A stretch of DNA of 35,539 bases from Candidatus Nitrosocosmicus sp. (lineage in GTDB: Archaea; Thermoproteota; Nitrososphaeria; Nitrososphaerales; Nitrososphaeraceae): assembly GCA_025934495.1 (NCBI GenBank), contig JAICXY010000027.1, positions 1-35,539 of the forward strand, in the 5' to 3' direction. Of the stretch, positions 16,543 to 35,539 are shown one piece after another. The notes beneath the pieces were generated by a model that made no database searches, had not been told where the DNA came from, and saw only the letters and a program-made list of their open reading frames with translations. The position numbers and the translations under genes are program-made. Each line of letters opens with the position of its first letter. Position 1 is the first letter of the stretch.

Positions 16543-16975
16543 CTTTTAACTCCATTTCTTCTATACCGCTACTATCAATGTATATAAAACATTTTGACTT
16601 GCCTGTTATTGTTGAATTGATTATCCAAGGAACAGGATTTATTTCCATATATTTTAAATCTGTTTTTGATGGTATAGGGTTTGAAGGATGAGTATGATAT
16701 ATTCCTACTACAGATAAATTCAAAGATTCTATTTTTTTATAAGCTTTAAAAAGTTTTTCTTCATTTATTGTAAACTTTATATTTGACTTTTCATCATTTT
16801 CCATCGGAATTATTTTTGTAACTATAAAATGATTATTATTTCTTTTACCCGCAAGAATTGCACATGATTCTAATGGTTTATTTTTTTGTGCAAGATTATT
16901 TAAAAGGATATAATTATTTTTGTTTATTAGGATTTCAAGAGATTCTGTGTTACCTGGTTCTATTTCTGGCATCAC
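16532..16975 (-). CDS. JAMM/MPN+ metalloprotease
   Basis: A zinc isopeptidase-type fold with the complete JAMM motif: E36 (PLESCAILAG), H94 and H96 (GIYHTHPSNP), S103 and D106 (PSKTD). In archaea such enzymes remove ubiquitin-like modifiers (SAMP/urmylation) or process sulfur-carrier proteins; the substrate cannot be deduced here. 147 residues, a single compact domain with no signal peptide. The start is ambiguous between the two first Met codons. Its 3' end overlaps that of aspS by 11 bases in convergent orientation, so transcription of the two could interfere. Confidence 0.87.
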   Translation of the reverse strand: MMPEIEPGNTESLEILINKNNYILLNNLAQKNKPLESCAILAGKRNNNHFIVTKIIPMENDEKSNIKFTINEEKLFKAYKKIESLNLSVVGIYHTHPSNPIPSKTDLKYMEINPVPWIINSTITGKSKCFIYIDSSGIEEMELKVMD

Positions 16976-17029
16976 TTAGAATTAGCATAGATGGTTTTCT
17001 TAACCTTTTTAATTTTAAAAGCAAAGCCG

Positions 17030-17725
17030 TATAAAGTTAAGGAAAATATTATCTCTTTGCTGTTCTAGCAGCCAATCCGATTCACCAAATCTTTGCATAT
17101 TGTATTTTGTTTTACATTTTTTTATTTTGTATGAAAGATGATCATCAAAGTATTCGGTCTCATCTTTATGAAATGCATAGTTCTCCCAATAATGCTTTTT
17201 CTCTTTTTTATATCAAAAGAATAAGTATAATGATCCAGTTTTAAGAATCTGCAGCCTTGAGGTGGACACCATGAGCCATTCCAGTCTGTAGAAACAGATG
17301 CTTTCCATACTCACTTATAACATTTGAAATAAATCGTTCTGCTACTATAAACATATTTTTAGTTTTTTTGATGTGTTGAGTAAGAGAATTTCTCTATATT
17401 GTTGGTTTGATGCTGGCAACGCCTTAAAGCCATAATAATTCAGAACCTACTCTAATATCAGTTTCGTCTTTTGTATGCCATGATATTCTTCTTAATTTCT
17501 TTGGTTTGCACTTTTGTATCCAGTTCCAATAGATAAAAGATAATTAATTTAATAAGGTGTAAAAAAAGAAAGATAATGCTTTTGCAGCGTTTCCAAATGA
17601 TAAATCTAAAAAGTACAAATGCAACCCATAACAGATAATTTTTAAAGGTGTTTTAATTCTAAGTCATAAAGGAAATTAGGAATTATCAGAACCTTTAGTT
17701 TTTCCCTAGTTAACTGGGCCGATCT
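17030..17725 (-). mobile_element. Decayed DDE insertion sequence (archaeal IS6-like transposase pseudogene)
   Basis: Reading the minus strand, pieces of a DDE transposase occur in order across frames with stops: LDLSFGNAAKALSFF (about 17580-17620), WHTKDETDIRVGSELLWL (about 17430-17485), NMFIVAERFISNVISEYGKH (about 17300-17360), VSTDWNGSWCPPQGCRFLKL (about 17240-17300), then a shift into DETEYFDDHLSYKIKKCK (about 17120-17175). These match the consensus W-x-DET-x-x-KxGSE, VAERFIxxLxxxYGKHPVSTDGGTWYP-QACRFLKL and RTESFDDYFPCRKxKCK. End-like sequences are AGTTAACTAGGGAAAAAC (minus strand, about 17700-17720) and AAAGTTAAGGAAAATA (about 17034). Two more copies of the family lie at 26066 and 35400. 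Confidence 0.75.
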
Positions 17726-17991
17726 TTGCTACAATTAGCAACATTAAATAATATCTAAAGAGTTGGTATATTTTAATCGAAATTCGTATAGTAAAATAAG
17801 AACATTACAATATAATACCGAATCTGTAAAATTTTGATAGGTATCTAATTAAGAAGCCTGACTCCTATTGTTGAAAATATATGCGATAAACTTACTATTA
17901 ATTAGTCTGGAATAAATATGGAATAAGCAAATCAAATTAAATGATATCTTTTGACGATATATATATGGCTGATATTGATTGACAGGTTAAT

Positions 17992-18555
17992 TTACATTTT
18001 TTGTCTGAGTACTTTTGATAGAATTTTGATTTTCACGTTATAAATGGGATCACCATTTTGTAACACTATATTTGATTTTTGAATTTGTGTAACAGTACTC
18101 CTTAATTTTAACTTTAATTTTGTCTTATTATCATTAATTGTGTACTCGTTCCACTTTTCTGAAATTGTATTAAATGCAACTTCTATTGTATAGGATGAAT
18201 CGAGTTCTTGTTTTGTATATAGTTTTATATGTGGATTACCTTTAGATTTTTTGGAAAAAATAAAAGATTGTATAGATTGAAAATCAAATTCATATTCATT
18301 TAATTTATTATCGTTAATGGCATTATTTTTGTATGGTTTTTTAACTCCTGTTAAGATTACTCTATTTTTTAATTTTGTTCCATCAGTTAAATCATATGAA
18401 TCCCAAAATTCTTTAATAACTTTAAAATCCAAAACCGTTGAAATATCATCCGTCATTTCCTGCACCTTTTTAATGCCTTTTGATATATTAATTGATGATT
18501 GATCTAGCATTTTTTTGAAATCTATTTTAATCAAATCTTCATAAATAATTTTCAA
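17992..18555 (-). CDS. Hypothetical protein (187 aa)
   Basis: An intact open frame from ATG 18555 with neighbour-like codon usage. Predicted soluble, no signal peptide, cysteine or membrane segment; an N-terminal helical part (IDFKKMLDQSSINISKGIKK) is followed by a beta-rich body (NRVILTGVKKPY, HIKLYTKQELDSSYTIEVAF, KLKLKLRSTVTQIQKSNIVL). I do not recognise the family. It sits in an island between two dead insertion sequences, which raises the chance that it is accessory. No partner gene is adjacent. Confidence 0.5.
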   Translation of the reverse strand: MKIIYEDLIKIDFKKMLDQSSINISKGIKKVQEMTDDISTVLDFKVIKEFWDSYDLTDGTKLKNRVILTGVKKPYKNNAINDNKLNEYEFDFQSIQSFIFSKKSKGNPHIKLYTKQELDSSYTIEVAFNTISEKWNEYTINDNKTKLKLKLRSTVTQIQKSNIVLQNGDPIYNVKIKILSKVLRQKM

Positions 18556-19174
18556 TTAAAATCAGCATGTATTTATTAAATTTGAGGTATCGATATAAAA
18601 TCAAAAATTATAATTGTTTCTATTTTATACCTTTTGATTTGTTATTAGATTTTGTAATTGTTTTTTTATTCGATTAGCCTGTACTTTGATGGTTGTATTG
18701 GTAATTCGAGAATTATATTTGAGATAAGTTATTTCGGTTACCACATAATAACGAAATTAGTAGTAATTTTGAAAGTTTTGTGAATAGTTTCCGAATTTGA
18801 ATGCATGCCTGGACTTTATTAGTTTTTATTCTATTAATGATCTTTTTCTATCGACATTTTCTTCACAATTTGTCTCACTCATCAAATTCTACTTAAGATG
18901 GCAATGAATAAATTTTTAAATTTTATCGATGCATAGTCGATACTTTTTATTTTGTTATTCATATTACTATTTTTATTTTTATCCATGTCTGTGCTGCTAT
19001 TAGTTATTATCATATATAATTTGAAAAGTATAATAATTGCATCAATTTAAAAAGATTGTATAAAATGCTTTTTTTCTAGATAGATCTAATACAAAGTTAT
19101 CAATTATTATTATTATTTCATAAAATAACAATGACTATTTAAAATTTAAATACATTTTCTACCTTCTATACTAA
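18556..19174. other. AT-rich intergenic region, nothing recognised
   Basis: About 620 bases with frequent stops in all frames. A 19-codon frame on the minus strand near 18830-18885 (MSETNCEENVDRKRS) is too short to call. AT-rich stretches near 19130-19150 could be the promoter of the next gene. No repeats or IS pieces recognised. Confidence 0.35.
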
Positions 19175-19588
19175 ATGTATAAAATTTTATTAATGTCTCT
19201 TATTGTTGTTATTGGATCTTTAGAAATAACAATACAAAACTTTCATTCATTATCTGCACAAAAAACTACAGTTCCACCTATCTTAAATAATACTACTTCA
19301 TCTCCTTTCACAAAATTCTTTTCAGAGAGCAAAGATTATCAACATTGTATAGAACACACCAATAGCTGTCATTCAACTGTAGATGTAATATACGAAAGTC
19401 CAACTACACTACTATTAAAATCACATTCAATGAATCCTCTTTGGAAAGCAGTTGATACTGTTAAAAAATTGGGTTATAGTATAGATGCTGTTACGTATTT
19501 GCCAAATGCAAATACTTCCAATCCAAATACTCCTTTTGATATATTGGTGGTAATGTCACAAAATCCCATTATTTCTCATCCAAAGTAA
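19175..19588 (+). CDS. Small exported hypothetical protein
   Basis: 137 residues with a Sec-type signal peptide: MYK, a hydrophobic core ILLMSLIVVIGSLEI, and a likely cleavage near SLSAQKTT (about 29-33). The mature part has a Thr/Ser/Asn-rich linker with N-glycosylation sequons (NNTTSS), a cysteine pair C57/C64 in HCIEHTNSCHS, and a C-terminal domain with WKAVDTVKKLGYSIDAVTYL and DILVVMSQNP. The last block looks like a small alpha/beta fold. I do not know the family; thaumarchaea encode many such exported proteins. A degraded IS follows about 200 bases downstream. Confidence 0.6.
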   Translation: MYKILLMSLIVVIGSLEITIQNFHSLSAQKTTVPPILNNTTSSPFTKFFSESKDYQHCIEHTNSCHSTVDVIYESPTTLLLKSHSMNPLWKAVDTVKKLGYSIDAVTYLPNANTSNPNTPFDILVVMSQNPIISHPK

Positions 19589-19789
19589 TTTTTTTGCTAT
19601 TTTTATTTCATCATTTTGATCGAGAGCGAATAGATCGGAAATTATTACTTGCAAACATCTCTATAACCGCAGTTTTTTCATTACCTCGTCCTATCTTTAC
19701 TTTCATACTATTGTTATCCAAAAAAACCACTAACTTAAGTTATTTGCTGCTGATCTTACAGTTCAAGAATTTAATGATATGTATGATAA

Positions 19790-20600
19790 ATAGATAATAA
19801 AAAAATATCCCAAGCTTGAAAAGCGCTTATCCAAAAGAAAAGGTAAAAAAGAGAAAGAAAAGCGGATGGACTCAAGATATTTCAAACTAGATGTTGAAGA
19901 AACACCTCTAATCCTTTTGGTTTACTATCGTCTTTACATAATTTATTATTTGAATTTCTATCTGATCTTAATCAAAGCAATGTCTACAAAGTATTCAAAA
20001 GATTAAGCGATCGCTAAGGCAATATGTACCAATACCTAGGAAGTAAACAACATTCTAATAGGCTTCAAACCCAAGAGGAACTCGAACAATATTTTCAGGT
20101 CCTGTTGCTTTTATAGATGGATAGAACAACAGATACTACAATCTGTCTATAAAGAAAGAAGAAAAATGTAATACTCTGGTAAGAAGAAAAGACAAACTAT
20201 TGTAAAGAACCATCTAATGGTTAATAATCGGTTTATATTTTTCATAAAGCAGATAATAGCAAAGGAAATGCATGATTATATATTCACATTAGAGGGACCG
20301 TCCTGTTGCTATCTCAAAATAAGTTATAAGGGTTTTTGATCTTGGATATCTTGGATATCTTGGTGTACAAACGGGCTTTCAGAACAACTATCAGCACTGT
20401 CGCATAAGAAGAAGAGAAACCGACAAGATCTGTTCCAAGAAGAAAAAGACGATAACAAAATTCATACTAAAAAGAGGATAATGATGGAGCATACTATATG
20501 TTAATTGAAAAAGTATGGGATAATGGATGATATATTTAGAAATGAGAAGTGCAATAAATTGTCAGACATAGTATCATGATTAAATGATTATACTAATGAA
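19790..20600 (+). mobile_element. Decayed insertion sequence with DDE_Tnp_4-like (IS5-group) transposase
   Basis: Transposase pieces occur in order on the plus strand, in several frames: YPKLEKRLSKRKGKKEKEKR and YFKLDVEETPLILLVYYRLY (about 19800-19940), LSDLNQSNVYKVFKRL-like (about 19960-20010), DGxEQ remnant and YSGKKKRQTIVKNHLMVNNR (about 20160-20230), ISWISWCTNGLSEQLSALSH (about 20340-20405), and KKRIMMEHTIC with LKKYGIMDDIFRN (about 20470-20550). The pattern is the EQ-I-R...YSGKKKRHT-KxQ...FDLGYLGV...PxKKxRxxxLxxEEKxxN...ER-I.-EHxIxRLK series of DDE_Tnp_4 transposases. Many stops and shifts make it inactive. The frame at 19594-19797 upstream has no recognisable content and I did not call it. 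Confidence 0.72.
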
Positions 20601-20755
20601 TCATATGAGTATATTATCAAGATAAGATATTCTAGTATAAAAGTAGAAATGGTTCATAATTATTAAGATCGAGTAATAGAAAATTATCTTTTTTTAAATT
20701 AACGAGTTTTTACAATCAAATGTCAGTAATCTGATTTATCAATGTAAAATTACTG

Positions 20756-21190
20756 TTAATATATGATATTGTCTCCTGTGTTCATCTGGCTTTGAAAGTT
20801 CGAATTACTACAAGAACTTAATATGTTTCCATCATGCTCACATTTGAGGTTTTGATTTGATGATTGATCCTGTCCTATTCCTTGTATTATTGAATTGCTG
20901 TCATGCCTGCTCCAGTTTTGATTAATGGTATTGTCTCCTGTGTTCATCTGGCTTTGAAAGTTCGAATTACTACAAGAACTTAATATGTTTCCATCATGCT
21001 CACATTTGAGGTTTTGATTTGATGATTGATCCTGTCCTATCGATTGAGAAAATTTATTATGATGATATGTTTTATGTTTTTTAGCTAAAACATATTCTGA
21101 TCCATTGAACAAACTTGATAATAATGATAAAGCGATTATTATGATTAACGCTCTAATTAAGAGATTTTTCTTATTGATTTTTGAGTTCAA
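20756..21190 (-). CDS. Exported Asn/Gln/Ser-rich repeat protein
   Basis: 144 residues: a signal peptide (KKNLLIRALIIIIALSLLSS..., cleavage probably near VLAKKH, about residue 36) followed by two copies of a 37-residue unit beginning IGQDQSSNQNLKCEHDGNIL and ending SQMNTGDN, set 54 residues apart, joined by TINQNWSRHDSNSIIQG. Each unit has two cysteines, perhaps one disulfide per unit. The N-x-x-Q-x-Q-x-N-x-G-D-N spacing recalls beta-solenoid or curlin-like repeats, so a fibre or surface role is possible; this is inference. The second unit stops abruptly (DNIIY), just where the first continues with TINQNW, which suggests a truncated array. A dead IS lies 160 bases beyond the stop. Confidence 0.65.
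   Translation of the reverse strand: MNSKINKKNLLIRALIIIIALSLLSSLFNGSEYVLAKKHKTYHHNKFSQSIGQDQSSNQNLKCEHDGNILSSCSNSNFQSQMNTGDNTINQNWSRHDSNSIIQGIGQDQSSNQNLKCEHDGNILSSCSNSNFQSQMNTGDNIIY
20768..21040. repeat. Two perfect 111-bp direct repeats inside the exported repeat gene
   Basis: Bases 20768-20878 and 20930-21040 are identical over 111 bp (period 162 bp = 54 codons) by direct comparison, including third codon positions. That points to a recent duplication or gene conversion rather than old protein-level constraint. Confidence 0.9.
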
Positions 21191-21413
21191 TCTATAATTT
21201 TGTAACCACTAGAAAAGATATTTAACATTCTTTGGATTGCCCTGTTACAATTGTATGTAACAAATATAGAACTTATGATTACAAAAGTTTTTAATTATAC
21301 ACACTGTTATTTATTCTCGAGTTTGCGATAGGTAAACCATCTTTTAAAAGCAATAATAGAATATACATTTTATAACATTAAATAAATCCATTGTAGAAAT
21401 TTCTATTATATAT

Positions 21414-21720
21414 ATGTCTTTTATGTTTGCAAATGATAACAGCTATATCATCTTTGCAATATCCAATGATACAATTTCCATTCATCTATCCAAAGGATAT
21501 GTCGATGGAGGATTAGTATTTTTTATTGCAAGTGATTCATCAGATAATCAAACAGCTGCTTTGATAAACGAGAATTTTAGATTATAAAATAAACATTGCA
21601 TACCTGTCATATTCGATTCCAAAATTGTACATCCAACAAAAGGATATGACTTAATGAAATAAAGGGAAAAGGATCTTTTGGATTTCAATTTCCTCTTGTT
21701 CTCAACAACATTAGTTCGTA
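21414..21720 (+). pseudogene. Remnant of an exported thaumarchaeal protein gene
   Basis: From ATG 21414 a 57-codon frame gives FAISNDTISIHLSKGYVDGG and LVFFIASDSSDNQTAALINE, ending at TAA 21585. Further on, in another frame, GKGSFGFQFPLV appears (about 21664-21700). This order (GYVxG-x-VFFIAxDxSDxxTA then GxGPFGFQ-P) matches a family of exported thaumarchaeal proteins I recall without a firm function (DUF7482-like, name from memory). The signal peptide and the rest are missing and stops interrupt the frame, so it is a gene relic. Confidence 0.45.
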
Positions 21721-22347
21721 GACCTAAACCGATATTTTTTGATATCCAGATTGAATCATCTTGTTCTATAATTGTGGGATATTATTTGCTTAATACGTAA
21801 GAAATTAGAATAATAATTTGATAGTATTTATACCCCATGATCATGCTCGATGTAGTTCTTGAGATACTTATTCGACGGGCTGTTTATCAGATGATATCCT
21901 AATTATAAGCAACAATCTATCCTGTATGTACATCGCGTTCACTCTTGTATGCTTTGGATAATGAGGTAGAGATCAACTAGTATAATATTTCATAGTAAAA
22001 GGTCAGCTAAAAAGTTATCCTTGAAATTTGATGGTTAAGTATGCATCTGTTCTACCTAGAGATAAACACTATTGTTTATTGATTCTTCTCAATTTTATGA
22101 AGTGATATAAAGAGCGAAGGTTATACTAATGTCATCAGAGAAAATAAGGTAATCTCCTAGAAATGGCGAACTTGATAAAAAAACAAATATTATTACAAAA
22201 AGTCATAAAGTTGTCCAAAAGTAATTTTTACAATGAGTAAACATAAAGATTCGCAATAAAAAGATTATTTGATTTCTGGGTCTATTTGTATTTTATTATA
22301 TTATAACAAAACAATTCCCAAATATCTTGATGATGTGAATTGTAGTG
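21721..22347. other. Intergenic region upstream of the TRIC gene, nothing recognised
   Basis: About 630 bases with stops in all frames. TTATATTATAAC near 22296-22307 is a probable TATA element for the TRIC gene. The stretch probably continues the decay zone of the preceding gene relic. Confidence 0.35.
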
Positions 22348-22986
22348 ATGTCTGATACATCTCCTGTCATAATAGTTTATCCGTTGGTTATTCATTTGCT
22401 TGATTTTTTTGGTACAATGGCATTTGCAGTTACAGGTTCCTTCAAAGCAATCGAGCAAAAATTGGATTTTGTTGGAGTTATAATCCTTTCAATAATTACA
22501 GGTCTAGCTGGAGGAATAATTCGTGATATTATATTTGGAAGGTTTCCACCAAACGCATTAGTTGATCCCGTTTACCTTTTGATAACTATTTCGACTGGTA
22601 TTGTAGTATTTTTCCTATATCCAAGATTAAAGAAACATTGGAATCTTTTTATAAAATTTGATGCTATAGGGCTTGGAGATTTTACAATAATAGGTGCAAC
22701 AGCTGCCTATACATTGTTTGGCCATAATTTTTTAATCATGGCATTTGCAGGGGTATTAACTGCTATAGGTGGAGGGATATTGCGGGATGTTTTTGTCAAT
22801 GAAATTCCCATTGTTTTTATCAAAGAACTATATGTTACTGCAAGTTTTATGGGCATTGTAATATTCTATTTGCTTTTGATATTTCTTAATGTCGACATAG
22901 CGGCTATTATTGCAGTAGTTTCTGTAATTTCTATTCGGTTTCTTGCAATTAAATATAATTGGAACCTGCCACGGTCTAAAAGTTAA
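22348..22986 (+). CDS. TRIC-family monovalent cation channel (YadS/UPF0126)
   Basis: Prokaryotic TRIC channels conduct K+ and similar ions across the membrane. The protein shows the family's internal duplication: DFFGTMAFAVTGSFKAIEQK with GLAGGIIRDIIFGRFPP in the first half, and DAIGLGDFTIIGATAA with TAIGGGILRDVFVNEIP in the second. About seven membrane segments are visible. The paired GG-x-x-RD motifs are the lipid/ion-path signature. 212 residues, standard length. The frame can begin at GTG 22345, but ATG 22348 immediately follows and is preferred. It stands as a single gene; the physiological substrate is not deducible from context. Confidence 0.87.
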   Translation: MSDTSPVIIVYPLVIHLLDFFGTMAFAVTGSFKAIEQKLDFVGVIILSIITGLAGGIIRDIIFGRFPPNALVDPVYLLITISTGIVVFFLYPRLKKHWNLFIKFDAIGLGDFTIIGATAAYTLFGHNFLIMAFAGVLTAIGGGILRDVFVNEIPIVFIKELYVTASFMGIVIFYLLLIFLNVDIAAIIAVVSVISIRFLAIKYNWNLPRSKS

Positions 22987-23259
22987 TCTGATGAGTTCCA
23001 ATTCAATTGTATTGTAATAATTCAATTATTTATTAATAATAATAAATTGCTTTGTTGCATTTTTGGGATAGTCTCTTATTATTTTAAGCATAATTTTATC
23101 AATTATGTTACAGCGAAATCAATAAATCTTTGATGGGCAATTACTCTTTATTAAAAAATTCATAATTTTATTTTATTTTTTATCCTTTTAAAAGAAATAA
23201 AAAAAGAAAACATGAAATTTATTTTGTTTATTTAAATTAAATTGAAAATAACTGCAAAA

Positions 23260-23268
23260 TATAAATAA
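23260..23268 (+). promoter_or_regulatory. TATA box of the cyclase-like gene
   Basis: ATATAAATA is centred 26 bases before the GTG at 23290, supporting that start and a leaderless transcript. The preceding 22987-23259 is AT-rich with no gene. Confidence 0.5.
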
Positions 23269-23289
23269 ATATAATTTATTTAACGATTT

Positions 23290-24672
23290 GTGAAAGAAAA
23301 CACTATTGGTTTGAATTCAAGCTTTTTTCTTTATACAGATGTTGTTAATTCCTCTGATATTAGAATTCCTGAAGAAATCCAAGTTTGTAAAATCATGAAT
23401 CTACAAAGGTGGACATTGCAATTCTTGATGAACCATGAAGGTGTAGATGAAGTTACCAAATTAAGGAAATATTTTAATTCAACTGGTGATGGAATGTTTG
23501 TGGTTTTTAATGATCGAGAAATATTTGAACCAATTAATTTAGCGATTTATTTGCATAAAACTATATATAAATATAATAAAGATAAATCAAGAGAAAACAA
23601 TATATCTTTAAGAATTGGTATAAGTTCTGGATCGCATCCTACTTTTTTTGATATGACTCATGGTAAAATCGCACCATGGGGATATAATTCTATTTTAGCT
23701 AGGCGAATAATGGATTTATGCAATCCAGATCAAATTCTTTTATCTAAAAGTGTAAGAGATACGTTATTAGAAAAGGTTCTTCCATCAGAGAATATTCGAT
23801 TATATGATTACATCTATAAAAAAGATATATTTCCAATAAAACACGATAGACAAGGTGAATTGGTTTATTCTTTTTTTGGTACCATTAATAATATTCGAAT
23901 AGGGAATAATGATAAACCATTATCAAGCAATAATGATGTTGTTGAATTCGATTTAGATGAAGATGCAAAAAAGCCTATAAAAGATTTTTTCTTATCCAAG
24001 GTGCAAGATTACAAAGAAAGCTTTTCAAAAATTTTTGAACCATTGGGAATAGATTTGAGCGAAGAAGATGAAATACTTTTTTTCAAATATTTGTTTGAAT
24101 ATTCTGGGAATTATTATAGCGGGTCTAGTCTCTTTCTTCCTAGCTCATTTGAAAAGAGAAGAAAAGCCTTTTTGGATTCTCAGTGGGAAATGTTTATAAA
24201 GTTTAAAAAAGAATTTGAAAGAAGAAATCTGGAAATCCCGAAGTTAGGAACTCGATATTTAATTCTGACTAAAGAATTATTGATATCTGATGTTGGTAGA
24301 AGTAGAGATCATTATGATCTTGTAAGGAGTTTTATATTAAGGCATCAACAAATGAAAGTCGATTTATATAGGATAGAACCTGTTGATGCTGAAAGTGCAA
24401 AAAAACAGACATTTCCGCCGCATTTATTAAATTCTAGGGATGGAGGACTATGGCATGATAAATATGCAATTCAATTTGAGGAAATGAATAAATCCTTTTA
24501 TCTACCTGATCATAATGTTAATGATAACCGCAGAATAGTTTTCTGTCCAAAGGATTCTGATATGTTTAAAGTAATTAAACAATTTATGGATAATCTAAAT
24601 AAATTAAAGGAAGATGGCAAGGCAGAGAAAATTGATTTGGAGTTTCTAGAAAAATATAAATTCTCCAATTAA
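23290..24672 (+). CDS. Class III nucleotidyl-cyclase-like protein with unassigned C-terminal domain
   Basis: Residues 9-200 follow the cyclase homology domain: SSFFLYTDVVNSS (10-22, first metal Asp D17), STGDGMFVVF (64-73, second metal Asp D67), LRIGISSGSHPTF (107-119), WGYNSILARRIMD (130-142) and NPDQILLSKSVRDTL (145-159). The purine-selecting Lys expected three residues before GD is N63, and the transition-state Asn expected four residues before Arg is out of register (N133 versus R138/R139), so substrate or activity may differ from adenylate cyclase. Residues 220-460 are a separate soluble domain: a helical part, then RYLILTKELLISDVGRSRDH (about 331-350), VDLYRIEPVDAES and GGLWHDKYAIQFEE, resembling sensor or regulator domains in outline but not assigned. 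No membrane segment. A single gene, convergent with the next. Confidence 0.72.
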   Translation: MKENTIGLNSSFFLYTDVVNSSDIRIPEEIQVCKIMNLQRWTLQFLMNHEGVDEVTKLRKYFNSTGDGMFVVFNDREIFEPINLAIYLHKTIYKYNKDKSRENNISLRIGISSGSHPTFFDMTHGKIAPWGYNSILARRIMDLCNPDQILLSKSVRDTLLEKVLPSENIRLYDYIYKKDIFPIKHDRQGELVYSFFGTINNIRIGNNDKPLSSNNDVVEFDLDEDAKKPIKDFFLSKVQDYKESFSKIFEPLGIDLSEEDEILFFKYLFEYSGNYYSGSSLFLPSSFEKRRKAFLDSQWEMFIKFKKEFERRNLEIPKLGTRYLILTKELLISDVGRSRDHYDLVRSFILRHQQMKVDLYRIEPVDAESAKKQTFPPHLLNSRDGGLWHDKYAIQFEEMNKSFYLPDHNVNDNRRIVFCPKDSDMFKVIKQFMDNLNKLKEDGKAEKIDLEFLEKYKFSN

Positions 24673-24715
24673 AAATAAGATCAGATTGTTATTTAGATTA
24701 TTGATAAAGTATAGA

Positions 24716-25426
24716 TTATGTATTGGGGTTTTTGCTTGTAATGTTATTTGTTTTGATCGTATTAGAACTATCTAATCCTATTCCTTTGATTAGCGTTCCA
24801 AACATTTCATTGGGACTTGCAAAATGCCAATTAGTTTTGCCTACATCGATCATCAGTCTCATTACCTTGTCCACAAGAATAACAGTTAGAGGTACATGCT
24901 TAAATTCCATCCCGATATTCGAATGGATATCTGCGACTCCTGTAACAATTACATCTTTACCTGTGAAAATTATATTATTTGTTGAAAAATTATTTATACT
25001 ATGAGTATGAGCGAAACTTCCATTAGGTTTTATCATTGTAAAATTTGCATTAAAAACAGCTGTCATATTTGGTTTAACTGTTATATTAGAAGTCTTATTG
25101 TAGTCAGTATTGTTATCATGTAAACCTTTGATTTTTAAATCCCATAATCCCCCTTGAATCCACGTTACTATACCATTGTTGATTTGATTATTTGCAAAGT
25201 ATCCTGACGCTTCTGCTATATTGTTATTATCTTTTTGCTGTTTTTCGTTGTTATTATTTATATTAATACTAGATTGTTGCGCTAAAGCCTGTTGATATGG
25301 TAATGGAGATGTAAACCCTTTAGATATCTCTAATAACAATGGCGATTGAGAAATTATTATATACACAAATACAATAAGAATTATTTTTGACAAGTTTTTA
25401 TGGTATCTAGAAAATAATCTACTCAT
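24716..25426 (-). CDS. Exported hypothetical glycoprotein-like protein
   Basis: 236 residues with a signal peptide: basic start MSRLFSRYHKNLSK, hydrophobic IILIVFVYIIISQSPLLL, and likely cleavage after QQALAQ (about 49). The mature part has an Asn/Gln-rich spacer, then a beta-rich domain: ASGYFANNQINNGIVTWIQG, NITVKPNMTAVFNANFTMIK, GSFAHTHSINNFSTNNIIFT, VIVTGVADIHSN and MIDVGKTNWHFASPNEMFG. Many N-x-S/T sequons suggest glycosylation. Conserved-looking His (HTH, H in NWHFAS) might bind metal, but that is speculation. I recall similar exported proteins in Nitrosocosmicus-like genomes, without a known function. Convergent with the cyclase-like gene, 43 bases apart. Confidence 0.62.
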   Translation of the reverse strand: MSRLFSRYHKNLSKIILIVFVYIIISQSPLLLEISKGFTSPLPYQQALAQQSSININNNNEKQQKDNNNIAEASGYFANNQINNGIVTWIQGGLWDLKIKGLHDNNTDYNKTSNITVKPNMTAVFNANFTMIKPNGSFAHTHSINNFSTNNIIFTGKDVIVTGVADIHSNIGMEFKHVPLTVILVDKVMRLMIDVGKTNWHFASPNEMFGTLIKGIGLDSSNTIKTNNITSKNPNT

Positions 25427-26065
25427 AGAGAATATATATATTCACAATAATAAATCTATTACTTGTTTAAATATTTTTTTTTATATTGGATTTCTAAATA
25501 TGGTAAAATAAATACCAAATCAATTCAATTACGTTCTTTTTATTCCACTTTCCTTATATTTGATAATAAAAAAGGGGAATTAAATCTGTAAAAACAGTTT
25601 TAACTATTTTTTAACTATTAATAATAGAGAATATATTACTTTTATAATTAAATTGGTTAATAAATTTATTTATTTTTTTTACTTGAGTATTAAAAGAAAT
25701 TGCTTTGCTAGTAAATCTATATATCAAGTTTACAATATATCAAAATTTTTGAAATCTATTACTTTAAAATTTACCTATATCTGATTTACCTTTACTATAG
25801 ACAATAATTAGTTTGAAATTGATAAATCAATTATATATACTATTTTTTAAAAAAGACCAAATATATCCCTCGAAAGGATTTGTTATTAACTTTATAATCT
25901 TGGTAAAATATATGTATCTATTCCTATTCAATTGTCTTTGATGATGGTAACAACAATTGGGTTATCTCTGATATCCTCTCTTTATTTTTAGTTCTTTTTT
26001 AAACTCGAAATTTTTACTTCTTTTGCCTCGGGGATAAATTTAATAGATTATAAATCAAATCCGTC
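25427..26065. other. AT-rich intergenic region, nothing recognised
   Basis: About 640 bases, extremely AT-rich (poly-A and poly-T tracts at 25471-25482, 25668-25680, 25842-25853), no usable frames. It contains the promoter of the exported protein at its left end and runs into a dead insertion sequence on the right. Confidence 0.35.
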
Positions 26066-26745
26066 TCTGCTAACCTAAGAAAAAGCTATCTAGAATTACC
26101 CTATAAACAATATTGGTATGTAAAAGACAAAGAACCAAACCAAAAGAAATTGCTTTTTCTTTATATCTCTAATTTCTTGGCCTCCATTTTAGAAATACTG
26201 CAAAAGAGCATTAAAGATTTATCCACCAAAGTCAAAGTCATGTCAACATATGAAAATGGATACAGAAATACAAACCACAAAAAAATCAAGCAAAAGAAAA
26301 AAGATTGATTAATTTGTTATTGATGGAGCCGTCAGCTTATCGGCTCTCAATACATATAGCTATAGGTACCTATTGAACTAAAACTCGGATAAATCCTCCA
26401 TGTTGATACAACTTTTGAAAGAACAATGTCTATAGCTGAGCGTTTTAATGCATCTTTGATATATACATATGGCAAGCACCCTGTTTCAATGGAGATGGTG
26501 CTAGCATTTGACATCCTCTTCAAGCCTGTTATTTTTTGAAACTAAAACATAATTTGTATTCCTCTTTAGAGAATAGTTTTATAGAGCTAGAACAATCCAA
26601 TATATCCATGATAACACAGCAGAAGAAATCCTGACAACTATTTTCCATGCAAAAGAAAGAACTGCAGAAACTACAACATATAAAACAATGGTTTAAGCTA
26701 TCCATTGACCAACATAATAAAATGTCTTAAGTTACCCTAGTCCTC
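26066..26745 (+). mobile_element. Decayed insertion sequence, same DDE family as 17030 and 35400
   Basis: The left end TAACCTAAGAAAAAGCTAT closely matches the copy at 35407 (TAACTTAAGAAAAAGCTAT). The plus-strand frame begins KRQRTKPKEIAFSLYL, then a stop, FLGLHFRNTAKE, a broken KWIQKYKPQK piece (about 26260), FERTMSIAERFNASLIYTYG with KHPVSM (about 26416-26495), and a PCKRKNC-like piece near 26645. The right end has TTAAGTTA (about 26727), a reverse complement of the left-end TAACTTAA. Numerous stops and frameshifts: non-functional. Confidence 0.75.
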
Positions 26746-26757
26746 TATAGGGTTGGA

Positions 26758-26880
26758 AAACTTTTTTTAATTATTAATTTTAATTTATATCCATAAGATT
26801 TTGAAACTTGTCTTTGACCATCGAGAAACTATATTTTGGATTTAGAACGGAGTGGCATTTTTAAAAAATCTACAAAGAAC
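26758..26880. repeat. Dispersed intergenic repeat, copy A
   Basis: Contains TATCCATAAGATTTTGAAAC, then TATATTTTGGATTTAGAA and GGCATTTTTAAAAAATC at the same spacing as copy B at 31358-31480, roughly 70 percent identical by eye over about 115 bases. It lies between a dead IS and the 3' end of the NRAMP gene. Confidence 0.5.
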
Positions 26881-26931
26881 TATTGAGTTTTTGATATATA
26901 TTTTATAAATAAAAATTGAGTGAAATATTGT

Positions 26932-28211
26932 CTATTTTCCAAATGTAATAAACATAATGATTGTGGCAACAGCCATGATAATAAAGGTAAGCCAACCAAT
27001 AACGTTTGTAAGACGTCCATTTGCATTCTCTTTGAGAATCTCCTTGTCATTAGCTATTTTCATTATTACATAAAGAATGGGTACAGATACAACCCCATTA
27101 ATAACTGAAGCATACACCAGTGCTTTAATCGGGTTGATGCCAAGGAAATTCATACCTAATCCTATTATTGCACTTATTGTAATAATTAGATAAAATGCCT
27201 TTGCTTGACCGAACTTTTTGCTTAATCCTTCTTTCCATTTAAAGGAATCAGATAAAGCATATGCATTAGAAGCAGCTAGTACTGGTATTGATAAAAGACC
27301 AGTTCCGATTATTCCCAAGGCAAAAATTGACTTTGAAATCTCGCCTGAATTTGGAAATGATTTAACGAGTGGCTCCAGAGATTTTGCTGCCTGTTCTGCA
27401 GTTTGAATATCTGTAACGCCATGGTATGCAGACTTCCGGCTGTTGTAATAATTATTGCCCATGTGATAAAGTGTGCAAAACCTATTCCGATAGCAGTATC
27501 TTTTATCATCGATTTTATCTCTTTTTTTGAAACTGCAGGTTTTCCTTTATCAATATCTTTTATTTTGTGCTGTTCAACCTCTTCTTCCACTTCTTCAGAG
27601 GCTTGCCAGAAAAATAGATATGGTGAAATTGTTGTTCCAAGAACGGCTACGAACATTGTAGCAAAATCGGTAGTAAATTCAATATGAGGGACTATAGTAG
27701 CAATTAAAATTTGATACCAATTATCACCTACAATAATTGCAGTTACTAAATATGTTAAAAGAGATAAAGTCAGATATTTTAAAATTTTTACATATTTTTT
27801 GTAAGGTATTAAAACAATGGCAAACAGAATAAAAATTGTAAAAATTATACTAAAAATGTATAAAGGCACTTGTGGAATCAAAAGACTAGTCGATGCAGCC
27901 ATTGCACCTATATCATCTCCAATATTTATTGTATTTGCAATTAGTAGAAGAGAAACAAGTGGCAGAACAACTTTTCTTGAATATTTTTTTTCAATTATCT
28001 TTGCAAGGCCTCTGCCAGTTAAAAGGCCTATTCTAGCACATATCTCTTGAACTACCAATATGGAAGGATAAAAAAATACTATTGTCCATAACAGCCCCAG
28101 CTCCAATTTTGCTCCTACTTGGGCAAAGGTTGCAATACTTGATGGATCGTCATCTGATGCACCTGTAATTAAACCCGGACCTAGAGACTTGAGAAAAGAT
28201 ATGATTGACAT
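26932..28211 (-). pseudogene. NRAMP-family metal transporter interrupted by a one-base frameshift
   Basis: Two overlapping minus-strand frames make one transporter. 28211 to about 27425 encodes the N-terminal part (GPGLITGASDDDPSSIATFA, then six or seven membrane segments and FWQASEEVEEE); about 27422 to 26932 encodes the C-terminal part (HGVTDIQTAEQAAKSLEPLV, then the last membrane segments). The break lies at CATACCATGGC (about 27418-27430), where SLH should run into HGVTDIQTAEQ; adding one base restores a 426-residue protein, normal for the family. The first metal motif reads DDDPSS rather than the DPGN of Mn/Fe NRAMPs and the helix-6 region reads GTTISPYLFFWQ without MPH, so the parent is of the NRAMP-related group whose cation may be Mg or unknown. 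Mutation or sequencing error cannot be separated here. Confidence 0.82.
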
Positions 28212-28371: not shown

Positions 28372-28610
28372 TTAATCTCTGATTTTTTTATCTTCAAAAA
28401 CAATTTTTGAATACCATTTAAAGCTAACGACATAATGCATAGATGAGATGGGAAGAATATTGTTGCTCTTTTCAGTAAGAATCCATTGTACCTTCATTGA
28501 TTGATTTTCTTCTTCTTCTTCTTTCTTTTCTTCTATTAATCCTTTCTGTACAATCTCCTTTATACACATAGACAAAACTAGGCAATTCTGGTATGTTCTA
28601 AGATGAGGTT
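28372..28610 (-). pseudogene. Fragment of an HxlR-like winged-helix regulator
   Basis: The minus-strand frame MSMCIKEIVQKGLIEEKKEE...VQWILTEKSNNILPI fits the second half of an HxlR/MarR-like winged helix (L-x-EL-x-x-x-GLI-x-R, then V-x-Y-x-LTxxGxxL). The recognition-helix region (RFxELxRxLxGIS) that should precede it is not found in frame. At 67 residues, with a Glu-rich wing (EEKKEEEEEN), it is a relic or a heavily altered small protein. It lies just outside the left end of the tRNA-Glu element. Confidence 0.4.
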
Positions 28611-28815
28611 AAAACAATCAAAATGATTTAAGTCTATCCAAAAATCCTGCCTTTCTTTCCTTCTTTTACTGAATTAGGTATGATGCTGCTGTTGTTATTT
28701 TTATAATATATTGCCTGCTCTTCTTGTGGCAATGATGATGATGGTGGTTTGGATAATATGATATTAACTATTTTTTTATTCTGAATTTTTATTGCTATTA
28801 TTGTCAAAACGTGGA

Positions 28816-28896
28816 TGCTTCGGCCGGGATTTGAACTTTGGATATGCGACTAGAAAGGCCGTAATGCTTGATCAGATTATGCAGTTTTTTGGCTTC
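28816..28896 (-). pseudogene. Truncated tRNA-Glu copy (probable distal attachment site)
   Basis: Aligns to bases 33036-33116 of the intact tRNA-Glu with roughly 84 percent identity by eye: the 3' acceptor strand (one change), T-arm (stem broken by three changes), the whole anticodon arm with TTC, the 3' side of the D-arm, and the intron. The 5' acceptor strand and 5' D-stem are absent. It cannot fold into a tRNA. Confidence 0.8.
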
Positions 28897-28969
28897 TTTG
28901 CTGAATTTGTTATTGCCTTTACTAAATTCAGTAAGATTGAAGTTAGGAATTAAAGAGGATATTAGTGGA

Positions 28970-29100
28970 ATTTTTATCTCTATTAGATTTGCAATCTTTT
29001 TTTGAAATTGATTTTAATTTGTAATTTTCGGTTTTGAGATTTTTTTGACCATGCAGGAATTGTATTTCGGATTTGGAAAGAAGCGGTATGCTCTAAAAGT
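28970..29100. repeat. Dispersed intergenic repeat, copy C (degenerate)
   Basis: TTTTGAGATTTTTTTGACCATG, then TGTATTTCGGATTTGGAAAG and GCGGTATGCTC follow the order of copy A (TTTTGAAACTTGTCTTTGACCATC, TATATTTTGGATTTAGAACG, GAGTGGCAT). It is the weakest of the three copies. Confidence 0.35.
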
Positions 29101-29283
29101 TAAACAAGAATTATTAAAGTTTTAAACCTAATAATAAATTAGATTTACTATGGGATTTATCTTTTGTACTGTTATCTAATTTAACTATGCTTTTGCTCCC
29201 TTGCTTATTTTTATACTTTAAAATACATACTATTAAAAATGAATGGTAACTGTCAACTGATTAAAAAGGAGTTTATATAAATT

Positions 29284-29658
29284 ATGCCAACTGTACAGCA
29301 CTTTGAAATTGCAGCAGATGATGTACAAAGAGCCCAAGAATTCTATAAAAAAGTATTTGGTTGGACTATGCAAAGGATGAGTAATCCTGTTAGACCTGAA
29401 GAAGATTACTGGACTTTTGAAACAAAGGATGATGATGGAAATCAAGGATTATCAGGCGGCATGATGAAACGTCAGTCCCCGCAACAAACTATTACAAACT
29501 ATGTATCTGTATTATCTATTGATGAGTATTCACTGAAGATAAACCAATCGGGTGGTAAAATAATTATTCCAAAAACCAAATTACCTGATATGGGCTTTAT
29601 TGCTGTATGTCTAGATAGTGAAAATAATATGTTTGGATTATTTGAACCAAACAAATAA
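29284..29658 (+). CDS. VOC-family (glyoxalase/bleomycin-resistance fold) protein
   Basis: 124 residues with the paired beta-alpha-beta-beta-beta units of the vicinal oxygen chelate fold: TVQHFEIAADDVQRAQEFYK with KVFGWTMQ in the first half (H6 a probable metal ligand), and VLSIDEYSLKINQSGGKIII, GFIAVCLDSENNMFGLFEP in the second, ending in the typical E(117)-P (FGLFEPNK). Members bind a metal and catalyse isomerisation or ring opening, or sequester drugs; the substrate is unknown. AAAGGAG at 29265-29271, 12 bases before the ATG, resembles a ribosome binding site, unlike the leaderless genes elsewhere here. It lies inside the tRNA-Glu element and is the clearest intact cargo gene. A T-run (29660-29667) follows the stop. 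Confidence 0.85.
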   Translation: MPTVQHFEIAADDVQRAQEFYKKVFGWTMQRMSNPVRPEEDYWTFETKDDDGNQGLSGGMMKRQSPQQTITNYVSVLSIDEYSLKINQSGGKIIIPKTKLPDMGFIAVCLDSENNMFGLFEPNK

Positions 29659-29740
29659 CTTTTTTTTATTTCTTTTGGTTTTTTAATACTTGATGATTTG
29701 AGTATTAAAAAAATTACTGGATTTCTATATTTTTCTTTGT

Positions 29741-31010
29741 TTATACTTTATAGTTATTGGTATGATAATGCAGCAAAAAAGGCACTGCAAAATTTATCAT
29801 TTCAGATGCCGGCACATCTTTAGTATCGCATCTACATAATATTACTATACCAATTTGCTTTTCCGGATTAAATGCTATTATACTAGAATAGCCATCTATA
29901 GCACCTGTATGCCGTATTACTTCTTTACCAAAATTTGTTGTAATTACCCAGCTAATCCAATGTATGTATCTGAAAGAGTAGTATGGTATGAAGATTCTGC
30001 AAACAAATGTCTAGTCAGATGAGTTTTCTCCATTGGATCATTGATTTCAGTATGTATCAACCCCATATTGGCTGAAAGATATTTCAGTAAATCATTTGAT
30101 GTAGAATACATAGCTCCGGCTGCCTGTATGGTTTGGGGAATGAACTCGTGATTTACCTCCTACCCCATATGTGGCCTTTTGCAAACCTATCTTTAATCGC
30201 ATTAGGCGGAGATATACCAGTAGCATTCATGCCTGTGCCCGTATCATCCATTGCAGGAACATTCAGGATTTTGTCTTTTACTAATTGTTCGAAAGGAACC
30301 CCTGCTTTCAACGAAAGGATGTGGCCCAGTATCACCATCCCTATATCCGAATAATTGGCTTTGGTTCCAGGTTTATAGGAAAGCGTAATATTGGAAAGAA
30401 AATCATACTTGTTGATTAGTATAACTCTGATTTCTAATCCCGCCTGCCGGAAAATCAGGTAGTCCAAAAGTATGTGTTGCCAAATTCTCTAGTGATATTT
30501 TTTGTCCATGATAGGGTGGCACATTAACAATAGGAGGAAGATATTGTTGTACGGTGTCATTTAATTTAACTAACCATTGGTTTACCATGTCCATTAAAAT
30601 GGTTGTTGCAAATGTTTTTGTAAGCCAGGCAATATCAAATAGAGTGTTTCCATCCACTTTTGTATGATTTGATTTGGATAAATTACCATATGCTGCAACA
30701 GAGGTCCCATTTGGAGATACAATGCCCAAAACCATTGATGCTGGAAGTACAGTGGAATTAGAAGGAATGTTTCCTGAAGTATTTGATAACAGATGTTTGA
30801 ACACTATTTGTTTTAGTTGGTTCAATATGATATTTGATAATTCATTTGCAGATGATTGATTGAATTATGGAGTTTTTTGAGCCTATATTATTCTCTGCAG
30901 CTGTAGTTGTTGATGCTGTTTTGGAAAAAAAGTATCAGAACTATAAAAGAAAGACAAAACTACGATTGCTGATAAGGACGTTGCTAATGATTTGATAATG
31001 TTTTTGAGTA
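29741..31010 (-). pseudogene. Dead exported serine beta-lactamase-family hydrolase
   Basis: The pieces follow in order on the minus strand. A signal-peptide-like stretch LKNIIKSLATSLSAIVVLSF lies at about 30945-31005. The body runs from 30825 (VLGIVSPNGTSVAAYG, DIAWLTKTFATTILMD, LPPIVNVPPYHG, LENLATHTFGLPDFPAG). A one-base loss near 30405 shifts into YDFLSNITLSYKPGTKANYS. A further shift occurs before MYSTSNDLLKYLSANMG (about 30120-30070) and another near 29950 before RHTGAIDGYSSIIAFNPEKQ and the final stop at 29741. The nucleophile motif S-x-x-K reads W-L-T-K (Ser codon changed to TGG, 30625-30627) and Y-x-N reads YSD; HTG is kept. Both frames and catalytic residues are lost. Parent enzymes are class C/esterase-like peptidases or esterases. 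Confidence 0.85.
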
Positions 31011-31042
31011 ATCAATGCAAGGTGTTATTTAGTTTAACTTGT

Positions 31043-31065
31043 ATACATACACAATTTGTATGTAT
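31043..31065. promoter_or_regulatory. Near-perfect 23-bp palindrome upstream of the dead hydrolase
   Basis: ATACATACA (31043-31051) and TGTATGTAT (31057-31065) are exact reverse complements around CAATT. The site lies 30-55 bases upstream of the hydrolase N-terminus on the minus strand, where an archaeal promoter or operator would be. It looks like a binding site for a dimeric repressor. Confidence 0.45.
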
Positions 31066-31357
31066 TCTTTTTCTAATTGAATATTAAATTTTTGAAGATA
31101 GGTTACATATTCTTACTTTTTTTTATATCTATTTTATTGAATTGTTATTTTATTATGTCTATTAATTGTTAACATTACTGTTTGCAAGATGTCTTGATTT
31201 AGGATATAAGAAGTAGAAATATTTTTTACAAACCTAAAAAGATTTTTTTTCATCTGTAAATTACAGATAATTCATAATATTTATATAAAAAAATGCATTC
31301 AGATTCTTCCTATAATGAAAATCTTAATATCAAAAATATCTCTATCCAAAAGTTTAG

Positions 31358-31480
31358 TAACTTTTTTTTCAATGATTGATTTTGACCTATATCCGTAAGA
31401 TTTTGAAACTTTTTTATTATCTTAAATTATATTTTGGATTAGAAAAGATGGAACACGTTTTTAAAAAATTGCGTAGTACA
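31358..31480. repeat. Dispersed intergenic repeat, copy B
   Basis: Contains TATCCGTAAGATTTTGAAAC, TATATTTTGGATTAGAAAAG and CGTTTTTAAAAAATTG at the same spacing as copy A (26758-26880). It lies beyond the 3' end of the CopD-like gene. The rest of 31066-31586 is AT-rich without a gene. Confidence 0.5.
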
Positions 31481-31586
31481 GTTTTAAATGTCTGTCAGAA
31501 TTACAATGAGTTAAATTATTGATTGTTATGGATTTAACAATTAGTAATAAATCAATTATTTTATTTTGGGTTAGTTATATTAAAGT

Positions 31587-32180
31587 TCAAAGATGAAATG
31601 AAAATCCGGTTGCAAATTCTGCCATTATAAAGATTATGGTAAACTGCAATACAGCCTGAATGGCAACTACTTTAACATATTTTTTCATCAACCTTTGAAT
31701 CTTTGACATATCCGGTTTGTCCTTTCTTATTTCAAAGTAGACACGAAGATTGGTTGGTAAAAGAATGCCTAATCCCTGGACCATCATTACAGTGACAATA
31801 GAAAGTACAGCAAAAATCCAGTAAGATGTAGGCGGTTGCAAAGTAATTAAACCCATTTTTGAAGCAAGAAAATATCCTGCAGTTGTAGTGACTGCAGAAA
31901 CAGTTGGCATAAAAAAAACCATCTTTGGCATAAGCCATGTAATGATTTCTTTGCGAGTTGACAGACTGACATTTCGAAGTACAGGGCCAAGAAGAAAAGC
32001 CATAAAGATATCAGTACCGGTCCATAGAATAGAACTAAATACATGAACGTAATTTAATAAAAGGAAATTGGCTGTTAGTATTGCTGCAATTAAAGCACCT
32101 ATTGGTACAATAATCCAGATATTGTCACGAAAAGATATTGTTGGTGGTGCTGAAGCTGATGGAGGACCTGTTTGTTGCAT
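31587..32180 (-). CDS. CopD-like/DUF2269-like integral membrane protein
   Basis: 197 residues with five predicted membrane segments: about 22-45 (IWIIVPIGALIAAILTANFL), 47-68 (LLNYVHVFSSILWTGTDIFM to AFLLGPVLR), 88-107, 118-140 (YWIFAVLSIVTVMMVQGLGI) and 170-192. The H-V-F-S-x-I-L-W-T-G motif followed by GPVLR is the pattern of CopD and related small membrane proteins (HxxxxxxWxGG...P.LR). Members are linked to copper import or haem binding; no direct evidence for either here. The Pro/Ser/Ala/Gln-rich N-terminus (QQTGPPSASAPPTIS) is cytosolic or exposed. It is intact inside the tRNA-Glu element, though similar proteins may be chromosomal in relatives. Confidence 0.65.
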   Translation of the reverse strand: MQQTGPPSASAPPTISFRDNIWIIVPIGALIAAILTANFLLLNYVHVFSSILWTGTDIFMAFLLGPVLRNVSLSTRKEIITWLMPKMVFFMPTVSAVTTTAGYFLASKMGLITLQPPTSYWIFAVLSIVTVMMVQGLGILLPTNLRVYFEIRKDKPDMSKIQRLMKKYVKVVAIQAVLQFTIIFIMAEFATGFSFHL

Positions 32181-32416
32181 GCATTAATTAGGATAGTCGC
32201 CTTTATGTTTTCTTTTATTCAAACCTCAAATAAAATAATTTTTGGCTAGAGCAATATCCAATATAATTAGTTTACTTAAGTGGTTTGGGTAAGATAGGTA
32301 ATAAGGTTTGAATGATTTCATTAATAAGTAAATTTTATTTGAAATTTTAGAACAGTTATGGATGGATAAAGAAATTTTATTAAAATTAACAAGAATAAAT
32401 ATAATAATGTTTTAAA

Positions 32417-33032
32417 CTATTTGTCTTTGTATACGTATTCGTTTTCTCTTGTCTTTATCAAATAAATTGCATTTTGTGCCTCATCAGGCCTCAGGCCAGT
32501 TAATGTATTGAAAAGTAAAACACTTGTATTCTTGCGGCAATATTTTACGGACATCTTTTATCCTACCAATCGTTTTATCAAGGCTTTACCCATTGATTTC
32601 ACTATCGAAAGTCGATTTGAATATCTTGACTAATTTATTAGATTCGACCCACTTTAACTGATATTTTTTAAGGATATCGAGCCAATGGTCATACCTTCCC
32701 AAATACTTTGATAATGAAACCAAAGCCTTCATTGTATGTGCTTTGGAGCCATGTGATATTTTCGAGGTCATGAGCATCCTTTTGCTATAAAATGTAACAA
32801 AATCTTAGCATAGCTAACCTTGTTTCTGATACTGCTTTTGCTTTGCTTTTGTGCTATTAAAGACTTTAAATTCCAACCAAAAGCTTTGCTGTTGCTTTCT
32901 TTCTGAATTTGGTAAGACACTATTATTAACAGTGTGTTTTGTATTTTCTTCTTTAATTTTATCTGAAATAAGTGATTTAAATGCTTGCAAGTCTACGTTA
33001 TTCGACATTTTATTGATAATGTTATCAAACAT
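32417..33032 (-). pseudogene. Dead tyrosine recombinase (integrase) adjacent to tRNA-Glu
   Basis: Starting at ATG 33032 (MFDNIINKMSNNVDLQAFKS), the minus strand continues in changing frames through SFWLEFKVFNSTKAKQKQYQ, then KAHTMKALVSLSKYLGRYDH with WLDILKKYQLKW (about 32640-32730), and SVLLFNTLTGLRPDEAQNAI with YLIKTRENEYVYKDK (about 32420-32530). TGLRPDEAQ is the box I region with the first catalytic Arg (consensus TGLRxxE). Box II (HxxR) and the Tyr nucleophile are missing, since a TAG follows. Placement against a tRNA 3' end in this orientation is typical of integrases of archaeal integrative elements. Non-functional by truncation and frameshifts. Confidence 0.7.
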
Positions 33033-33035
33033 GAA

Positions 33036-33131
33036 TGCTCCGGCCGGGATTTGAACCCGGGATCTGCGACTCGAAAGGCCGCAATGCTTGACCGGACTAT
33101 GCAGCTTTTGATGCTTCTACACCACCGGAGC
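33036..33131 (-). tRNA. tRNA-Glu (anticodon TTC) with 20-base D-loop intron
   Basis: Acceptor stem GCTCCGG/CCGGAGC with discriminator A and no encoded CCA; T-arm CCCGG-GTTCAAAT-CCCGG-type; anticodon stem GCGGC/GTCGC closing the loop CTTTCGA, anticodon TTC. Removing 20 bases (33097-33116) leaves a 76-base tRNA with a normal D-arm (GTGT...G18 G19...GCAT). The intron therefore sits at about position 15/16 in the D-loop rather than at the usual 37/38; its exact edges are ambiguous because TAG occurs at both junctions. Confidence 0.92.
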
Positions 33132-33153
33132 TTCAATCTGTGTATTTTGGGAA

Positions 33154-33164
33154 TATTATAAAAT
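33154..33164 (-). promoter_or_regulatory. TATA box of tRNA-Glu
   Basis: On the minus strand ATTTTATAATA lies centred about 28 bases before the tRNA 5' end at 33131, the normal archaeal promoter spacing. Confidence 0.55.
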
Positions 33165-33232
33165 CCTTTCTTATTTTTATTATCCCTCTTTATTCAAAAT
33201 GTTTTTTTATCTGAAAAAACTTAAATAGTTAT

Positions 33233-35364: not shown

Positions 35365-35399
35365 ATATCTATTCTATATAAAATGTATCTCTATTACAT

Positions 35400-35539
35400 G
35401 GCTCTGTTAACTTAAGAAAAAGCTATAGCTAAAAACTTGTTATAACATATATTGAAATATCAAAGACAAAGAACCAAGCCAAAAGATATAGCTTATTCTC
35501 TATATCTTTACTTTCTAGGTCTCTCTTATAGAAGCACCG
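35400..35539 (+). mobile_element. Left end of an insertion sequence (DDE family of 17030 and 26066), cut by window end
   Basis: GTTAACTTAAGAAAAAGC at 35406-35423 matches the left end of the decayed copy at 26066 over about 18 of 20 bases, and the coding sequence that follows matches that copy's N-terminus. The element runs out of the window, so its right end and activity are unseen. Confidence 0.65.
35452..35539 (+). CDS. Transposase N-terminus (partial, continues beyond window)
   Basis: From TTG 35452 the frame is open to the window end: KYQRQRTKPKDIAYSLYLYF then LGLSYRST. It corresponds to the broken copy at 26130 (KRQRTKPKEIAFSLYL, FLGLHFRNT) but without its stop codon, so this copy may be intact. 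The start is uncertain because a TAA lies three codons upstream and no ATG is available. The family uses a DDE catalytic triad further downstream, outside the window. Confidence 0.55.
   Translation, partial: MKYQRQRTKPKDIAYSLYLYFLGLSYRST

Follow-up and report, generated by a model that had tools for sequence, protein, structure and literature searches.

SSV-type integrative elements of archaea, such as SSV1, pTN3, and pT26-2, carry so-called suicidal integrases and have been reviewed in PMC8371274. In the SSV-type model, the attachment site (att) lies inside the integrase gene, and integration separates an N-terminal part, int(N), from a C-terminal part, int(C) (PMC8371274). Suicidal integrases have been described from hyperthermophiles, and their persistence has been called a paradox (PMC8371274). 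Tandem integration has been noted in general, and inversion between elements has been proposed as a source of hybrid integrases (PMC8371274). A survey of 20 thaumarchaeal genomes recorded 74 integrated elements. Of these, 39 lay in tRNA genes, 10 in intron-containing ones, and an SSV1-like split integrase was noted for a single element, NitEve-E3 (PMC6563490).

Here we describe a 35,539-nucleotide stretch of Candidatus Nitrosocosmicus DNA (hereafter the window), which forms contig C116 of a genome of 3.56 Mb (200 contigs), and compare it with 14 further genomes of the host's genus (G numbers below). The aspartyl-tRNA synthetase of the host is closest to those of Nitrososphaeraceae MAGs (81%), followed by Candidatus Nitrosocosmicus (65–72%), which places the host, an ammonia-oxidising soil archaeon, in or near that genus. 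The original prediction described an old insertion at tRNA-Glu as one element with both attachment ends and a dead integrase. The age, the target, and the dead integrase hold, and an int(N) piece adjoins the far tRNA copy. However, the start of another integrase follows that copy, so the copy is an internal junction of a stacked array and not an outer end. The locus is very probably a decayed array of at least two, and probably three, SSV-type split-integrase elements at the 3′ half of tRNA-Glu(UUC) (Table 1).

Table 1. Features of the tRNA-Glu(UUC) locus in the order in which they lie, outward from the intact tRNA gene.
Feature	Coordinates	Strand	Remarks
Intact tRNA-Glu(UUC)	33036..33131	-	20-nt D-loop insert at 33097-33116; restored target, bounding the array on its inner side
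int(C)-1, decayed C-terminal part of a split tyrosine recombinase	32417..33035	-	Frame open back through the tRNA; cut off after box I
CopD-like / DUF2269-like membrane protein	31587..32180	-	Intact frame; likely cargo
int(N)-x, int(N) relic, 25 aa	31341..31418	-	Probably marks the outer limit of the innermost element
Class C beta-lactamase / AmpH-like pseudogene	30153..30825	-	Frameshifted
VOC (glyoxalase-fold) protein	29284..29658	+	Intact frame
int(N)-2, degraded N-terminal split-integrase piece	28915..29089	-	Abuts the tRNA copy; in frame through the copy with int(C)-1
Truncated tRNA-Glu copy	28816..28897	-	tRNA positions 15-96, without 1-14; displaced att separating two elements
int(C)-3, beginning of another and older integrase (...SSIIPNSVKEGKK...)	28627..28815	-	First 190 bp past the tRNA copy
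Nramp metal transporter pseudogene	26932..28211	-	Two overlapping frames, frameshifted; patchy in the genus
int(N)-3, int(N) relic, 37 aa	26748..26858	-	Probably marks the outer limit of the oldest element

The intact tRNA at 33131-33036 (-) reads GCTCCGGTGGTGTAG-[AAGCATCAAAAGCTGCATAG]-TCCGG..., and its anticodon loop, CTTTCGA, was assigned by hand to Glu(UUC), in agreement with the predicted tRNA-Glu. Because of the insert, ARAGORN miscalls the gene as Arg(CCG), and the Rfam score is 25 bits; the insert is intron-like, and an insert occupies the matching place in all nine relatives listed. The truncated, 3′-only copy, predicted in the same orientation 4.2 kb away with about 16 percent changes, was recovered as described: it matches the intact gene by BLASTN with E = 1e-24 (82% over 114 nt), or with 84% identity over 83 ungapped nt at a spacing of 4220, and differs by 15–16% over tRNA positions 15–96. 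It is the best other match to this tRNA in the 3.56-Mb genome. The likeness between copy and intact gene continues past the tRNA 3′ end (GCATTCATG-TTTGATAACATTATCAATAAAA vs GCATCCACGTTTTGACAATAATAGCAATAAAA) and, more weakly, for about 150 bp further. Since G001 keeps an exact 45-bp copy at this gene, the att core of the window would by analogy be the 45 bp at 33036-33080, that is, tRNA positions 52–96. The window copy extends 37 nt further 5′ than this core, perhaps reflecting an element with a longer attP; archaeal att sites extending to the D-loop have been recorded (PMC8371274). A 33-bp match on contig C9 was rejected as an att because it is another tRNA, and no integrase lies beside the tRNA-Glu(CUC) on C187 of the same genome.

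The broken tyrosine recombinase predicted beside the tRNA is present, with an ATG at 33032 in int(C)-1. Its remains comprise the frames 33032-32814 and 32777-32586 and the sequence TLTGLRPDEAQ near 32490, and they match an intact relative with E = 1e-31. The similarity ends near 32420, before the remaining catalytic domain, and the catalytic C-terminal half of this integrase was not found elsewhere in the genome. Int(C)-1 is the C-terminal piece of the dead integrase, and the original prediction had missed the N-terminal piece at 29089-28915. This piece, int(N)-2, was detected in two frames by a search within the window (E = 7e-8 and 4e-6), and none of 300 shuffled queries gave E < 1e-3. No int(N) lies beside the intact tRNA-Glu; int(N) adjoins the truncated copy instead. 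On the other side of the copy, the int(C)-3 sequence SSIIPNSVKEGKK compares with SHLPNSVR and HILPNSVRYEK in relatives. The two int(N) relics farther from the copy were found by tblastn, int(N)-x with E = 3e-5 to 1e-5 in the window and 4.5e-4 per genome, and int(N)-3 (repeat D3) with E = 9e-8 in the window and 1.2e-5 per genome. They also form a DNA repeat, in which the 31341-31418 region matches 26762-26809 over 48 nt with 85% identity. The host genome holds four int(N) sites, three of them within 5 kb at the tRNA-Glu locus and on one strand.

The window thereby shows the layout of an SSV-type element: direct att copies at a tRNA gene enclose an element, one att adjoins int(C) and the other int(N), and both integrase pieces are in one frame through the att. 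The single displaced copy has integrase parts on both sides, as in tandem (accretion) arrays; the outer att copies were not found. Since integrase parts flank the tRNA copy on both sides, at least two elements must be assumed. The three int(N) relics point to a third element, in which case one int(C) and two att copies have been lost; BLASTN and a repeat search revealed no more tRNA-Glu fragments near int(N)-x and int(N)-3, where these att copies are expected.

The array probably formed as follows. A circular element would carry the att, corresponding to the tRNA segment that spans anticodon to 3′ end, inside its integrase gene, where it would be translated as part of the integrase. Recombination with the chromosomal tRNA would yield two junctions, one with a restored tRNA followed by a C-terminal integrase piece, and one in which an N-terminal piece continues into the displaced tRNA 3′ end. 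With its integrase gene cut by the insertion, the element would stay trapped in the absence of a different integrase. Later, a related element would have entered the same tRNA and pushed the earlier element outward, which would place the truncated copy between the N-terminal relic of the newer element and the C-terminal relic of the older one. All pieces would have decayed after stacking.

Relatives of the integrase support this layout. A six-frame search with the broken frames of the window detected the family in all 15 genomes of the genus. The best intact relatives are a 361-aa frame in G010 (contig C47) and a 350-aa frame in G005, both of which start at the 3′ end of tRNA-Glu(CUC) and stay open when traced back into the tRNA (AFRPLKATIPGSNPGRSI...). 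Each of these elements has at its far end a tRNA copy spanning anticodon to 3′ end, directly preceded, in the same frame, by a 60-residue sequence (MSLLSKSEILYLQGQKNASKSYEYKLRSIINKKVANLLDKEIPLLSSLFSNLNLTDFGKD). The int(N) and int(C) frames share codon phase across the att in six of the six better-preserved elements, which come from five genomes and share 26–96 bp of DNA; the chance of such agreement is 1 in 729 if the elements are independent. The frame through tRNA-Glu differs between two groups, being GLSSRRSRVQIPAGA for the window and G001 and PLKATIPGSNPGRSI for G010 and G005, but is consistent within each element. The G010 relative scores 26.5 bits against the Pfam family Phage_integr_3 (PF16795), just below the cut-off of 27 (E = 6.7e-6); the window lacks this catalytic part. 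No circular or undivided form of the integrase was detected in genomes of the genus and family or in viral contigs, no relatives of the joined 420-aa integrase were found among viral contigs, and solved structures gave no sequence match.

Other split integrases in the genus, at loci L138 (G001:C33), L118/L052 (G004), and L116/L043 (G003), also contain an in-frame tRNA-derived segment, from different tRNA genes. Some of these segments are read antisense, and the peptides include RPGFEPG, WAGIEPATFALP, and SPAQIRTG. At three further loci, L134 (G009:C158), G002:C3:211502, and G007:C117, the int(N) frames continue into a tRNA-Glu that is complete and keeps its 5′ flank, which suggests a second element group entering tRNA-Glu from the 5′ side. 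At G006:C173, a locus of another group, a stop codon closes int(N) ahead of the tRNA. This locus suggested that int(N) might be a small gene of its own, an idea that was rejected for the Glu group since the frames agree in all six better-preserved elements.

The tRNA-Glu(UUC) gene is a hotspot, and G001, G005, and G010/G011 hold other decayed elements of 2–4 kb there. In G001, the tRNA is followed by int(C), 3.8 kb of sequence, int(N), and the exact 45-bp copy. G010 and G011 share one common 2.4-kb element with the same layout and other genes inside (85% identity over 3.1 kb including the outer flank). Integrase fragments accompany a 30-bp copy 2.1 kb away in G005 and occur without a copy in G002. 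Neither an integrase nor a tRNA copy is present in G003, G004, G007, and G014, where 3.6 to 15 kb of flank was read, and the flanks in G006, G008, and G013 are too short to judge occupation. Since the att frame differs between the window and G010/G011, and the att of G001 is still exact, the insertions in the window, G001, and G010/G011 are best read as separate events. In line with the predicted integration, the gene order between the copies is not the same across relatives: the contents differ in each insert-bearing lineage, and four relatives lack an insert. Two stacked layers are also present at tRNA-Glu(CUC) in G005 and G010.

The original prediction also named genes stranded by the element, a VOC protein and a CopD-like protein. 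The latter is an intact membrane-protein frame, its only Pfam match being a weak one to DUF2269 (E = 0.02). Since no homologue occurs in the 14 relatives, this gene is plausible cargo. The VOC gene is uninformative in this respect because most relatives have VOC genes (about 49–66%) at other places. The Nramp pseudogene has close relatives (75%) only in G005 and G012 and is possibly cargo of the outer element. A proposed HxlR fragment at 28372-28575 found no Pfam or NCBIfam match. Elsewhere in the window, a near-perfect direct repeat at 20756-21040 (123 nt, 97%, spacing 162) lies inside a gene for a small secreted-like protein.

The flanks of the array differ in their conservation. The CADD / tRNA-Met side is conserved. 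The distance from tRNA-Glu to the CADD gene (window 33132-33232) is only about 100 bp here and in G011; most relatives have about 2 kb there, which holds one or two small genes; the CADD protein has no relatives in genome contigs. On the other side, the window follows the gene order of relatives only as far as the JAMM gene at 16,975 and departs from it beyond that point (16975-28000). The usual 3′ neighbours of tRNA-Glu, a polyprenyl synthetase and a tRNA methyltransferase in G010, lie on contig C9 of the window genome, 1 kb from its start. Because the flank below 26.7 kb is rearranged in the window genome, no empty site with the window's own flanks was found among the relatives. A motif like GGCTCTGTTAACTTAAG recurs at about 35398-35418 in the window and at about 184-206 and 1264-1446 in L004. 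On contig C9, two copies of this kind in opposite orientation bound a stretch of about 180 bp near the contig end, perhaps a small insertion-sequence relative.

Three other explanations of the locus were weighed. A single integration with ends at 33036 and 28816, carrying an ordinary integrase that starts after the tRNA, would account for two directly oriented copies with an integrase beside the intact one, and int(N)-2 and int(C)-1, being in frame, may indeed belong to one element. However, the outer flank of the copy is the start of another integrase, which largely refutes this explanation, and there are two additional int(N) relics, at 31.4 and 26.8 kb. The integrase is also not an ordinary one, since int(N) exists. 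We therefore regard a single element as improbable.

Even less probable is a segmental duplication of tRNA-Glu with the adjoining integrase start, or an independent tRNA pseudogene, in either case without site-specific integration. Within the tRNA, the copy does extend 5′ of the usual att core, which a plain duplication would explain, but int(N) abuts it exactly where the integration model predicts and is absent beside the intact tRNA. The same layout, with an exact 45-bp core, occurs at the same gene in G001 and also at other tRNA genes. A misassembly of the draft genome that joined the array or its flanks into a chimeric contig seems least credible of all. It would explain why the flank below 26.7 kb matches no relative and why the core genes for a Gly_transporter protein (22345) and a tRNA synthetase (15226), more than 100 kb apart in three complete genomes of the genus, are 6 kb apart here. 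Against it, int(C), int(N), att, int(C), and int(N) follow one another coherently on a single strand, relatives also carry insertions at this tRNA, and the CADD / tRNA-Met side is conserved. The stacked array of split-integrase elements is thus the preferred explanation.

Stacking could conceivably offer self-cutting integrases a route of recovery, in which the int(N) of a newcomer, the att, and the int(C) of a resident form a new full-length hybrid integrase gene, a proposal that we consider rather doubtful. Junctions of this composition occur in the window (29089-28627) and in G010:C47, both decayed, and no intact hybrid junction gene was found. If the proposal is true, a hybrid integrase at the junction could release elements and alter specificity with no need for the inversion route put forward in published work.

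The locus is a decayed member of the known suicidal-integrase kind. It resembles SSV1, pTN3, and pT26-2 in its att inside the integrase gene, its int(N)/int(C) split, its tRNA target, and an att of 40–50 bp (PMC8371274). Unlike those elements of hyperthermophiles, it belongs to a mesophilic soil lineage, the PF16795 match is marginal, and two groups read the tRNA in different frames. With NitEve-E3 and the cryptic thaumarchaeal elements it shares the phylum and family, the SSV1-like split integrase, sizes from 2.6 kb, and intron-containing tRNA targets (PMC6563490). That survey included no Nitrosocosmicus genome and named one split case, whereas the split form is genus-wide here, with stacked and fossil copies. 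The suicidal-integrase gene organisation is thus common in a mesophilic soil lineage, and its copies, which are fresh, stacked, or fossil and share a small set of tRNA genes, provide a natural series for studying how elements persist, how a whole integrase may re-form, and which genes are left behind. As in tandem (accretion) arrays at one tRNA, successive insertions at one att would leave displaced tRNA 3′ ends between the layers. Unlike in plain accretion arrays, split integrases join the int(N) of the newcomer to the int(C) of the resident at each internal junction. What is new here is the commonness of the split form in the genus and the stacking that sets the int(N) of one element beside the int(C) of another.
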